This document shows, in pieces, positions 5,614 to 58,766 of a stretch of DNA of 64,000 nucleotides; position 1 is the first letter of the stretch, and every line of letters begins with the position of its first letter. Made by a program: the position numbers and the translations under genes. The DNA comes from Candidatus Thiodictyon syntrophicum (GTDB taxonomy: Bacteria > Pseudomonadota > Gammaproteobacteria > Chromatiales > Chromatiaceae), in the NCBI RefSeq assembly GCF_002813775.1, contig NZ_CP020370.1, positions 5,233,501-5,297,500 on the forward strand, given 5' to 3'. Under the pieces are notes generated by a model. It worked only from the letters and a program-made list of their open reading frames with translations. It ran no database searches and was not told the DNA's origin.

Positions 5614-6071
5614 GGCCGCCCCCCGCCCGCCCGCACGCACCCGCGACCCCTGCCCCCGAGGGGGACGGGCCGACCGCGACGGACGCTGGGTACAAAAGTA
5701 TTCACGCCCCCATGATACAGGCATCCCCGCGCCCCCGCATGGGCCGCAGTGCCCGGGAACGCCGTCCTGGTCGTTGTCGTTGTCGTTGCCGTTAGTCGTG
5801 GTCGTGGTCGTGGTCGTGGTCGGATTGTTCGATTACGACAACGACAACGACGCCCGGCCCATGAGAAGGTCCGGTTGCTGTAGGGTACGCGTTGCGTACT
5901 ACGGGATCGGCGTCAACACATTGGTTCTGATCGCACCCGGTGCCCGGAATACCGCGCCGCTTGATCCGCCGCCGCGACCCGGTGCAGGATGCGACCCGCG
6001 GGGACCCCTGAGGTCCACCCGTCCCCTGCCGCGTGACCATCCATAGACTATCCAGATAAGGAGCCAGCCCC
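5614..6071. other. Gene-free interval holding a GTTGTC type II element
   Basis: No coding sequence is supported between the divergent lapB and the 6072 gene. The low-complexity open frames here arise from the hexamer repeat. Apart from the repeat element at 5769-5905 and a ribosome binding site (AAGGAG, 6058-6063) for the next gene, I see nothing recognisable. Promoters for both directions presumably lie here, but none could be assigned. Confidence 0.6.
5769..5905. repeat. (GTTGTC)n hairpin element, type II, copy A
   Basis: A left arm of GTTGTC and GTCGTG units (5769-5820) faces a right arm of CGACAA units (5832-5851) around GGATTGTTCGATTA. It is followed by a conserved tail (GACGCCCGGCCCATGAGAAG, then GTCCGGTTGCTGTAGGG and a small GGGTACGC/GCGTAC palindrome). 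The same core and tail recur at 57912-58024, so this is a dispersed element and not a simple microsatellite. Confidence 0.8.
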
Positions 6072-6535: not shown

Positions 6536-8688
6536 ATGGACTACGACGCCTTCCTCTCCCACCACAGCGCCGACAAGCCGCTGATCCGGGAACTGCGCCG
6601 CCGCCTCCTGGCGCAGGACCTGCGCGTCTGGCTCGACGAGGAGGACCTGCGCCCCGGGCAGCGTTGGCAGGACGGGCTCGAGGCCGGCATCCGCGCCTCG
6701 GCCTCGGTGCTGGTCTGTATCGGCGGCTCAGGCATCGGCCCCTGGGAGGACGAGGAGATGCAGGCCGCCCTGGACCTGGCCGCCCATGAGAAAAGGCCCG
6801 TCATCCCGGTCCTGCTCCCCGGCGCCCCGGAGCGCCCCGCCATCTCCATCTTCCTCAAGAGCCGCACCTGGGTGGACCTGCGCGAGGGCATCGACACCGC
6901 GGGCATCGGCCGTCTGGTCTGGGGCATCACCGGCGAGCGCCCGGACGCGGGCGCCCGCGCCGCCCCCGACCGCCGCCGCCAACTCCCCGCGGACCTCTCC
7001 GACTTCACCGGCCGCACCGCGGAGCGCGACTGGCTGGAGGCGCATCTGACCGCTGGCCGCTCGGTCGCCATCTGCGCCCTGGCCGGTCAGGGCGGCCTGG
7101 GCAAGACCGCGCTTGCGGTGCATGTGGCGCATCGCATCGGGGAGCGCTTCCCGGACGGCCAGATCCTGATCCCGCTCGGCGGTGCCGGTGAAAAGCCGAT
7201 GTCCGCGCTGGACGCCATGGCCTGGGTGATCCGCGCCTTCGAGCCCGAATGGCGCCTGCCGGACGATGAGGCTCAGATTCAGGCGCTCTATCGCGGGGTC
7301 CTGAACGGCCGGCGGGTGCTGATCCTGGCCGACGACGCGGCCGGCACCGCGCAGGTCGCGCCGCTCACACCCAGTCCGCCGGCCGCACTGATCGTCACAT
7401 CCCGGCGGCGCATCGCGCTGGGGGAGCGGCGCGACCTGGACTTGCTGGAGCCCGCCGCGGCGCGCACCCTCCTGGCCGGCATCCTGGGTGAGGGCCGCGC
7501 CCTGCGCGATGCGGATCTGGACCGACTCGCCGCCGCCTGCGACCGGCTGCCGCTGGCCCTGCGGGTCGCGGGCGCGCACCTGGCGCTGCACCCCGAGGTG
7601 CCGCTGCCCGAGTATCTCGCCGCGATCGAGGACGAGGCGACGCGGCTCCAGGCGCTCGACAGCGAGGCGATCGAGGGCGGTCATGTCGGTGCCGTGCTGG
7701 CCTTTTCGGTCGAGCAGTTGCTCGTCGCGGACCCGGGGCTCGCCGTCAGTTGGCAGGCGCTCGCCTGTTTCCCGGCCCCCTTCGACCGGGCAGCGGCGGC
7801 GGCCGTCTGGGGTCTCGCCGTGGAGCGGGAGGCACAGCCGGGGCTCTCCAAGCTGATCGACCGCAGCCTGCTGCGCTGGGACGCCGGCACCGGGCGCTAT
7901 CGGCTGCATGACCTGCTCCGGCCCATCGCCGCGGCGCCCTGGCGCTGGTGTCGGACCCGGGTCCCGGACGGACCCAGTCCGGAGAACCTCGCGCTGGCGC
8001 GGGGGCGGCACAGTGCCCATTTCCTCGCGGTCCTGCGGGCGGCCAATGCGCGCTACCTGGAGGGTCACGACGGGGTCGGCGCCGGCCTCGCCGCCTATGA
8101 CGCCGAGGCCGCCCGATCGCCGCCGGTGAGATGTGGGCGGCGGCCGGGGCGGATGAGGACGCCGCCCGGTTGGCGATGGACTACCCGGACGCCGGTGCCT
8201 ATGTGCTGAGTCTCCGCCTGCACCCGCGCGAACGGGTCCGCTGGCTCGAGTCCGGGCTCGCCGCCGCCCGCCGGCTCGGCGAGCGGGGGGCGGAGGGCGC
8301 CCACCTCGGCAATCTCGGCCTCGCCTGTAAGGACCTCGGCGAGCCCCACAAGGCCATCGGCTTCTACGAGCAGGTCCTTGCCGTCTTCCGCGAAATCGGC
8401 GACCGCCGCGGCGAGGGCAACGCGCTCGGCAACCTCGGCAACGCCTGGAACGACCTCGGCGAGCCGCACAAGGCCATCGCCTTCTACGAGCAGCAGCTTG
8501 TCATCGTCCGCACGATCGGCGACCGCCGCGGCGAGGCGATCGCCTTATTCAACCTCGGCGAGGCATTGGAGTCGCTGGGCGACCCCGCGACCGCCCGCGG
8601 CCACATGCAGCAGGCCCTGGCACTCTTCGAGTCGCTGGAGAGCCCCCACGCCGAGACCGCCCGCGACTGGCTCGCCCGGCACCCCTGA
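6536..8688 (+). pseudogene. TIR - NB-ARC ATPase - TPR protein, split by one frameshift
   Basis: A STAND-type protein. Residues 1-130 form a TIR domain (YDAFLSHHSADKPLIRELRR, RVWLDEEDLRPGQRWQDGLE). An NB-ARC ATPase follows, with Walker A GQGGLGKT at 184-191 and Walker B-like VLILADDA at 261-268, then HDLLR at the end of the helical/winged region. The frame is lost near 8118, where one base appears missing in the expected text for AARIAAGEMWAA; the next frame continues with three TPR units to a stop at 8688. Bacterial TIR-STAND proteins are known antiphage NAD+-degrading systems. If the shift is real, the sensor TPR part is uncoupled; a sequencing error or programmed shift is the alternative. 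Confidence 0.75.
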
Positions 8689-13885: not shown

Positions 13886-14103
<218 letters not shown>

Positions 14104-25137: not shown

Positions 25138-25348
25138 CGTGTCATGCCCCCTGGGAGAGACCGGCCGTTGCGCCGGCGCCGAAGGCGCAACACCGCCCGG
25201 AATCGCTCAGGCACACCGGACCACGGGGCTTAAGACCGACTCTGGAGAGCGGTTGCCGTCTGTTGGCTCAGACCGCAACCCACCGACGGGGCAGCCGGCC
25301 GGGCCGCAAGCGCCTGGCCCGCAAACTCTCAGGTCCAGGACAGAGGGG
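25138..25348 (+). promoter_or_regulatory. Tandem glycine riboswitch
   Basis: Two aptamers in series precede gcvT. The first has CTGGGAGAGACC, CGCCGAAGGCGCAAC and GCTCAGGCAC; the second has ACTCTGGAGAGCGG, CACCGACGGGGCAG, GCCGCAAGCGCC, AAACTCTCAGGTCC and the closing GGACAGAGGGG. These are the hallmark paired internal loops of glycine riboswitches, which bind glycine and usually switch gcv expression on. About 100 bases lie between the second aptamer and the gcvT ATG, space for the expression platform. The context (gcvT-gcvH-gcvPA-gcvPB) confirms the ligand. Confidence 0.93.
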
Positions 25349-26573: not shown

Positions 26574-26728
<155 letters not shown>

Positions 26729-36737: not shown

Positions 36738-36898
<161 letters not shown>

Positions 36899-55385: not shown

Positions 55386-55542
55386 GGAACGGTTCACTAA
55401 TAAGTAAGACAAGTCCGTCAGAGAGTGCCTCGTTGTCGTCGTTGTCGTTGTCGTAATCGAGGTTATCGGAGTGCCCCGGATTCTTTCGCACCCGAATTGC
55501 ATCGCTTCTCCGAATACGATTACGATTACGACAACGACAACG
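55386..55542. repeat. (GTTGTC)n hairpin element, type I, copy E
   Basis: Left flank GGAACGGTTCACTAATAAGT (shared with copy B), left arm CGTTGTCGTCGTTGTCGTTG, loop with GTTATCGGAGTGCCCCGGAT and GCATCGCTTCTCCGAATACG, right arm ATTACGACAACGACAACG. It lies between two genes of the same module. Confidence 0.87.
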
Positions 55543-57733: not shown

Positions 57734-57911
57734 GGTTACTCCGGATCGGGTCGTGTTTGGACTGGCCTGCGGTTGGCCGGGGCGGTGCCGTTCAGGGTCC
57801 GCCGCCCCGGCGCCGGAGTGTATCGCCTAACGGCCGTTGCGTGGTATGTCTGGATCACGTCGGGTGCGATCAGAGCTGCTGTGGCGACCGAGATCCCGGG
57901 TACGCTGCCCT

Positions 57912-58024
57912 GGTCGTTGTCGTTGTCGTTGTCGTTGTCGTGATCGGATTGTTCGATGACGACAACGACAACGACGCCCGGTCCGTGAGAAGGTCCGGTC
58001 GCTGTAGGGTACGCATCGCGTACG
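57912..58024. repeat. (GTTGTC)n hairpin element, type II, copy F
   Basis: Five GTTGTC units, GTGATCGGATTGTTCGATGA, right arm CGACAACGACAACGACGCCC and the tail GGTCCGTGAGAAGGTCCGGT then GCTGTAGGGTACGCATCGCG. The tail agrees with copy A almost base for base. A GGGTGCGATCAGA stretch upstream (57860) also occurs, inverted, downstream of copy A. Confidence 0.88.
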
Positions 58025-58054
58025 CGGCCCCGGAACTGCCCTGCGGCCTCCGCG

Positions 58055-58130: not shown

Positions 58131-58242
58131 GAAACCCGCGGGACCCGCGCGATTCTGCCCTGCGGCCTTGACCCGCATGTCTGAGAGAACTATCTTGCGA
58201 AGACCGCAACGAATAAACCTTGACTGAACCGAGGATCTACGC

Positions 58243-58464
58243 ATGGTCAATGCAGCGCTGATTTCTCAAGTCCGGAAACTGGACGTGGCGGATCGGATCG
58301 AACTGATCCGCACCGTTTGGGAGACCTTCGATGAACCGGACCTGGCCATTACGGAAGCAGAAAAAGTCCTCTTAGACGCGCGCTTGGCCGACGCAGAAAA
58401 CAACCCCATGGACCAGAGCCCGTGGTCGGAGGTTCAGTCCCGGCTGTTGCGGCAGCTTCCGTGA
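58243..58464 (+). CDS. Addiction-module antitoxin, RelB/TIGR02574-like
   Basis: 73 residues: SQVRKLDVADRIELIRTVWE leading to TFDEP and later DARLADAENNPMDQSPWSEV. This is the usual pattern of short antitoxins beside ParE/RelE toxins (L-x-x-x-E-R-x-E-L-I-x-x-L-W, then R-x-x-x-x-x-x-N-P). The stop overlaps the toxin start (GTGA). AAACCTTGACTGAACCGAGG precedes the ATG, with GAGG as ribosome binding site. The antitoxin would bind the toxin and its own operator. Confidence 0.85.
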   Translation: MVNAALISQVRKLDVADRIELIRTVWETFDEPDLAITEAEKVLLDARLADAENNPMDQSPWSEVQSRLLRQLP

Positions 58465-58766
58465 GCTATCGCGTTGTCGTGCGGCGCAATGCAGAGCTTG
58501 ACATTGCCGGCGCTATCCATTGGTATCAAGAGCGGCGCAGGGGCTTGGGGTCCGAATTCCACGCGCAGTTCAGCCGCACCATTGAACGGCTGGCGGACAA
58601 TCCGCTGATCTACCCGGTGGTGTATCGCGGGGTGCGCAGAGCGGTCTTACACCGATTCCCATACTTGGTCTGGTACCGGGTTCAAGACTCGGTGGTCACG
58701 GTCCTTGCCTGCACCCATGCCAAACGCCACCCGGACATGGCGCGCACACGTCTCGCCGATCAGTAA
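58461..58766 (+). CDS. RelE/ParE-family toxin
   Basis: 101 residues from a GTG at 58461. YRVVVRRNAELDIAGAIHWY, RTIERLADNPLIYPVVYRGV, VRRAVLHRFPYLVWYRVQDS and VTVLACTHAKRHPDMARTR are the ordered strands of the ParE-like plasmid-stabilisation family. ParE members poison gyrase, RelE members cleave mRNA on the ribosome; the basic C-terminus (HAKRHP) fits either. Start overlaps the antitoxin stop. Complete and probably active as a pair. Confidence 0.88.
   Translation: MSYRVVVRRNAELDIAGAIHWYQERRRGLGSEFHAQFSRTIERLADNPLIYPVVYRGVRRAVLHRFPYLVWYRVQDSVVTVLACTHAKRHPDMARTRLADQ

Follow-up and report, generated by a model that had tools for sequence, protein, structure and literature searches.

Copies A and F, two short repeats in the window (the whole 64,000-nucleotide stretch analysed here, positions 5233501-5297500 of the chromosome of Thiodictyon syntrophicum Cad16), belong, as worn copies, to one family of small non-coding transposons that is dispersed in this genome. 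The explanation that best combines the observations, and in which we place high confidence, is that this family (hereafter type II) is an ISKra4-type MITE whose inverted hexamer arms, (GTTGTC)n and (GACAAC)n, would serve as recombination joints. Its identity as a MITE with 9-bp target duplications and the exchange of material between its arms and those of a second repeat family (type I) were both absent from the first-pass annotation of this DNA. Cad16 is a purple sulfur bacterium with a genome of 7,738,984 bases, including a chromosome of 6,837,296 bases and one plasmid of 484,824 bases (PMC5944118).

That annotation had described arms, a loop and a tail common to A and F, and direct reading of both stretches bears this out: inverted GTTGTC/GACAAC arms enclose the loop GGATTGTTCGAT and are followed by a tail ending in GTAGGGTACGC. 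BLAST within the window aligns A with F over 105 bp at 90.5% identity (E 1.4e-32), and the tail alone over 53 bp at 90.6%. The arm pattern GTTGTCN{3,30}CGACAA has four overlapping matches in the window, all in F, as compared to 0.16 expected from shuffling. In F, (GTTGTC)4 at 57916-57939 is followed by GTGATC, the loop GGATTGTTC, GATGAC, (GACAAC)2 and then GACGCCCGGTCCGTGAGAAGGTCCGGTCGCTGTAGGGTACGC; A has the same layout and the same loop, but its left arm is more worn, with two GTTGTC followed by degenerate and GTGGTC units, and its tail reads GACGCCCGGCCCATGAGAAGG...GTAGGGTACGC. The parts of the two copies are as follows, in window coordinates:

57862..58030, + strand: copy F, type II MITE; left end retained, right end lost or diverged (terminal repeat at 57862-57881; homologous to other copies up to 58030)
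57862..57881, + strand: left terminal inverted repeat of F, GGGTGCGATCAGAGCTGCTG, with 2 mismatches to the common form
57916..57945, + strand: left hexamer arm of F, (GTTGTC)4 GTGATC
57946..57954, + strand: loop GGATTGTTC of F
57955..57972, + strand: right hexamer arm of F, GATGAC (GACAAC)2
57973..58003, + strand: conserved tail of F
58004..58025, + strand: REP-like palindrome GTAGGGTACGCATCGCGTACGC of F
5757..5938, + strand: copy A, type II MITE; left terminal repeat gone, right one retained
5748..5756, + strand: left target duplication of A, AGTGCCCGG (empty site G006:C741)
5939..5947, + strand: right target duplication of A, GGTGCCCGG (empty site G006:C741)
5919..5938, - strand: right terminal inverted repeat of A, which reads CATTGGTTCTGATCGCACCC on the + strand
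5773..5821, + strand: left hexamer arm of A, worn (two GTTGTC, degenerate units, GTGGTC units)
5831..5848, + strand: right hexamer arm of A, GATTAC (GACAAC)2
5849..5899, + strand: tail of A, with a REP-like palindrome at 5880-5899

The tail is thus conserved, as first described, but it is only half of a larger element, whose terminal repeat in F begins 50 bp before the start originally given. Likewise, A and F are real copies, but the family is not limited to them. A search of the genome with the F stretch returned 365 first-look candidates, 40 of which were scored, and 99 match rows, and the terminal repeat has 155 hits when up to 2 mismatches are allowed. A sample of twenty 20-kb stretches, evenly spaced, yielded type II cores at 4 places and type I cores at 12, to which the window adds 2 and 4, respectively; scaled by hand, this sample puts the number of type II copies in Cad16 at about 80, which is compatible with the 155 terminal-repeat hits. 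The hairpin pattern has 205 forward and 247 reverse matches in the genome, one hairpin being able to give several, and a reversed control has none; the type I core has 153 hits (up to 3 mismatches). These searches bear on the outcome that the first-pass annotation had named as its refutation, namely a tail unique to the two sites through recent local duplication of one onto the other. The likeness of A and F across 105 bp would fit such an event, to which we nonetheless give practically no chance: many further copies exist, ten of them scoring higher against F than A does, and A is absent from G006, a relative in which the left end of F is present, so that the two copies have different histories. 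Descent from a single element distinct from type I is instead supported, type II ends, tail and core being common genome-wide.

Reading beyond the tail revealed common ends, GGGTGCGATCAGAACTGATG, in 30 copies. The two-ended copies of Cad16 measure 175-279 bp, too short for a transposase gene, and have GGGTGCGATCAGAACTGATG as inverted repeats at their ends with 9-bp duplications on either side. The duplications were assessed on 43 two-ended copies, 34 from Cad16 and 9 from relatives (3 of these 9 being devoid of hexamers): the flanking 9-mers are alike at 6.12 of 9 bases, compared to 3.04 for shuffled partners (sd 0.22; largest of 2000 shuffles, 3.84), and flank identity is 0.68 at length 9 and between 0.27 and 0.38 at every other length in the range 4 to 14. 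Eight of the 43 pairs are perfect. A later set of 48 two-ended copies includes 9 in which none of the offsets tried gives more than 5 matching bases out of 9, and we read these as recombinants or as the result of decay. Common ends, 9-bp duplications and small size lead us to call type II a MITE, and terminal inverted repeats, a target duplication of fixed length, short size, many copies and an IS with matching ends (see below) are all found together here; that it is a selfish MITE is nearly certain. Like Correia/NEMIS, RUP, ERIC and Nezha elements, type II is short, non-coding and present in high copy number, with terminal inverted repeats and target duplications; unlike them, it has expandable inverted hexamer arrays that are common to a second repeat family.

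The sites of A and F in G006 illustrate the two histories. The orthologous site of A (contig C741, flanks 95-96% alike) is empty and contains a single GGTGCCCGC, whereas in Cad16 the element is flanked by AGTGCCCGG and GGTGCCCGG. A deletion between the CCCGG of the target copy and a CCCGG within the element would explain the missing left end of A. For F, the left flank, the terminal repeat and the first hexamers are found at the same place on G006 contig C385 (locus L262; 95% over 2.16 kb), but homology ends inside the left arm, in the middle of the contig, and other, GTC-rich sequence follows; the tail of F was not found in C385. The right flank of F (58145-58664) matches a different contig, C565, in a stretch with no hexamers, no terminal repeat and only a poor match to the tail. 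The F locus therefore differs between Cad16 and G006, with a breakpoint in the arm. The GTC-rich sequence that follows the broken arm in C385 could be a repeat-coding gene with which the arm has recombined.

A quite different possibility is that A and F are conserved regulatory or structural RNAs, or DNA signals for the host such as a terminator, an attenuator or a protein-binding site. F as single-stranded DNA is predicted to form a strong hairpin (z -4.64), and A lies between divergent open reading frames, both of which are in keeping with such a role. However, neither A nor F has an Rfam match, A is absent at its orthologous site in G006, and arms and ends vary freely, so that we consider a host signal very improbable; most likely, type II is selfish DNA with no host role. 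In terms of known structured RNAs, none reaches the Rfam gathering threshold at A or F, and the only match in the window is a glycine riboswitch aptamer at 25142-25233 (RF00504). As for neighbouring genes, lapB had been proposed beside A and is supported (PF18073), but the TelA-like gene proposed beside F is not: at E 0.001, no Pfam family matches the 417-aa open reading frame to the left of F. The next one to the right of F, at 58422-58766, encodes a ParE-like toxin. Near A, an open reading frame at 6536-8209 encodes TIR and NB-ARC domains, possibly those of a defence or signalling protein.

The probable parent of the ends was found in a relative. G002 carries an IS of 1426 bp (C189:1577-3002, locus L131) whose ends, GGGTGCGATC(C/G)AAACTGATG, match those of the MITE at 19-20 of 22 positions; by eye, 6 of 9 bases are alike in the duplication around this IS. 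Around a KK codon pair, its transposase is split into two overlapping open reading frames in -1 register. The second one (318 aa) matches the NCBIfam ISKra4 profile NF033572 (E 6e-58) with 196.9 bits, just under the cut-off of 205, and Pfam UPF0236 with 27.3 bits (cut-off 24.3), while the first (101 aa) has no match among the NCBIfam and Pfam profiles. Members of the IS superfamily of ISKra4 are described as having ends of 18-39 bp and duplications of 8 or 9 bp, and its ISMich2 group as using a -1 frameshift (PMC3942029); the MITE itself has a 9-bp duplication and ends of at least 20 bp, as expected for ISKra4 type. The ends of the G002 copy, the 8- or 9-bp duplications and the two frames in -1 register resemble the ISMich2 group (p-MULT 4) of the ISKra4 family, in which L131 can be provisionally placed, on the basis of its split frames and not of a tree. 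Type II differs from this group in that it has no transposase and an interior unlike that of the IS. Fragments carrying an L131-type end are also present in G006 and G007.

This points to an ISKra4-family transposase as the enzyme that mobilises type II in trans. A search of Cad16 for the parental transposase gave no close copy, only 13 distant matches (33% identity), and a past or passing helper must therefore be assumed. The ISKra4 copies of Cad16 itself were considered as movers and set aside, since their ends are GGGTGCGGCCTCCGAATAATG and their duplications look like 8 bp (two copies), and they are thus not cognate. The thirteen ISKra4-like transposase matches (loci L155, L158, L162, L163 and L165) correspond to 438-aa open frames, and the copies read have ends GGGTGCGGCCTCC... 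MITEs with ISKra4-type ends, a different inner palindrome (GTAGGATGGGCAGAGCGAGAGCGATGCCCATCC) and no hexamers were observed in G005 (L109) and G002 (L114 and L126).

At the end of fuller type II copies stand GTAGGGTACGC...GCGTACCC and the inverted counterpart of this palindrome. This organisation, GTAG followed by a short palindrome that forms an inverted pair in fuller copies, resembles that of GTAG-tagged REPs and REPINs (PMC3733652), with the difference that the type II palindrome sits inside a MITE. RAYT-type genes (PF01797) are present in 7 of 8 genomes, with 83 matches, but none of the 20 loci examined among these bears the GTAGGGTACGC palindrome, and a REPIN-RAYT link for the type II palindrome is thus not supported. 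One of the 20 loci, L238, bears a sister palindrome, GTAGGGTCCGC, which is found apart from type II at many places of the sample. The free occurrence of this palindrome and the existence of hexamer-free MITEs in G002 and G005 indicate that ends, palindromes and hexamer hairpin are separable. Free-standing GTAGGGTCCGC/GCGGACCCTAC palindromes are also frequent in the window, from 8755 to 52936, and in the sampled stretches.

Type I, the second family with hexamer arms, is represented four times in the window:

13953..14068, no strand assigned: type I element, same arms
26575..26694, no strand assigned: type I element, same arms
36738..36897, no strand assigned: type I element, same arms
55432..55542, no strand assigned: type I element, same arms

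As the first-pass annotation had recognised, type I is distinct: only the arms are shared with type II, often with GTAATC/GATTAC beside the core, while the core is another, longer one and the flanks are different. No 9-bp duplication was seen in the 4 type I copies, of 45, for which both ends could be called. Since the arms of both families are built of one hexamer, read towards the core in a single sense, pairing could occur between any two arms. For 76 cores of type II, all from loci in Cad16, GTTGTC accounts for 207 of 344 units upstream and GACAAC for 207 of 277 downstream, counts that are sums over the eight commonest kinds of unit. Relative to the tail, 45 of these cores point one way and 22 the other (no tail was recognised for 9), a ratio that is biased by 30 loci having been chosen for their likeness to F; good duplications accompany both orientations.

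Comparison of orthologues shows that the arms change length. Between L139 and L022, the left arm differs by -12 and the right arm by +12 bases, and between L143 and L064 by +6 and -6, respectively; between L230 and L097, the left arm differs by -18 bases and the right arm is equal. The idea of a conserved summed length of both arms, which holds in the first two pairs, fails in the third and was dropped. No in-place flip of the core was seen in these three two-armed pairs.

Other copies combine parts of different elements. L189 is a type II half fused to the core and flank of a type I element; in L085, the core also belongs to type II and the flank to type I. L137 shares its left flank with L081 but has tails on both sides, and is one of 3 double-tailed copies among 48 two-ended ones. 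In L137 as in the two hybrids, the arms form the junction. A larger-scale case, again with the arms as the junction, is L216 in G006. There, the left flank of L003 (Cad16 3.2577 Mb, + strand) meets the right flank of L026 (6.3096 Mb, - strand), with 96-97% identity over 1.25 and 1.41 kb, at sites that are 3.05 Mb apart in Cad16. The junction, an element of about 84 bp between unique flanks, lies inside a 35-kb contig; single reads could span it, and a mis-join is unlikely. A simple two-site inversion between L003 and L026 is nonetheless no more than a candidate, as the reciprocal junction was not found in G006, and the right flank of L003 adjoins a third flank in C499. The other flank of L026 runs to the end of the C323 stretch, inside the element.

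These observations suggest that the hexamer arms probably act as recombination joints within an otherwise ordinary MITE. They could instead be a slippage-prone decoration of such a MITE, the hybrids and odd junctions then being due to recombination over longer homology or to assembly errors. A change in unit number alone suffices for L230/L097, in which one arm is altered and the other not, MITEs in general are described as recombination sites (PMC10969869), and G006 is a draft of 910 contigs in which 24 of the 40 stretches fetched ended at contig ends. We find this account fairly unlikely, given that the two families share only the hexamer arms and that L189 and L085 are joined there, and given that the L216 element is short enough for one read.

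With the arms as joints, the account would run as follows. An older MITE would have captured a hexamer hairpin. The element contains a GTAG-tagged REP-like palindrome, which stands alone or forms an inverted pair, together with the hairpin (GTTGTC)n-core-(GACAAC)n; type I would be a separate family with the same kind of hairpin around another core. An ISKra4-family transposase acting in trans would recognise the GGGTGCGATCAGAACTGATG ends and generate the 9-bp target duplications. Slippage would alter the number of hexamer units, and recombination between arms would invert the core, join halves of different copies, or join type I to type II, while the same process between arms of distant copies would rearrange the chromosome. 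This recombination route is deduced from the junctions described above. A broader proposal, that the arms are a general recombination joint through which unrelated repeat families of the lineage trade ends, cores and chromosomal neighbourhoods, so that chimeric elements keep arising, is speculative and in our view quite unlikely.

The distribution of the parts gives some indication of their relative age. Of 55 genomes in the relatives search (that of the window included), 9 have the hairpin pattern, and only Cad16 and G006 have it in numbers. Among the matches listed, those from other members of the genus mostly have cores that are type I-like or different again, G007 having one type II core, and in two other genera of the family the hairpins surround different cores. 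Of 9 relatives searched, 6 have terminal-repeat hits. The MITE and the hexamer hairpins are thus likely to be older, their union having then multiplied in the Cad16/G006 lineage. The same data raise the possibility that the hexamer hairpin is an independent mobile or self-expanding element, inserted into both the ISKra4-type MITE and type I, as MITEs with the same ends lack hexamers in G002 and G005 and hairpins surround other cores in the two other genera. This is conceivable but doubtful: we found no site that has the type II sequence and lacks just the hexamers, nor was a duplication identified around the hairpin. In a plasmid collection, two records only were recovered, each with a 34-bp hexamer match, from Rhodococcus.

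MITEs with IS ends are of a known kind and Correia elements have been reported to invert (PMC10969869; PMC3733652). In the literature searched, we recognised neither this element nor inverted hexamer arrays that are shared and exchanged between two repeat families. Type II would represent a MITE assembled from palindromic modules that can be separated, and one that exchanges halves with another repeat family; it could provide a test case for the gain of new ends by non-autonomous elements and for large chromosome rearrangements driven by short inverted arrays. Hexamer counts could also serve as markers of Thiodictyon strains. Finally, one type I copy of Cad16 (L186, near 931165) is interrupted by another small palindromic element, beginning with GGCCTTGATCATAACTCCGGCC.
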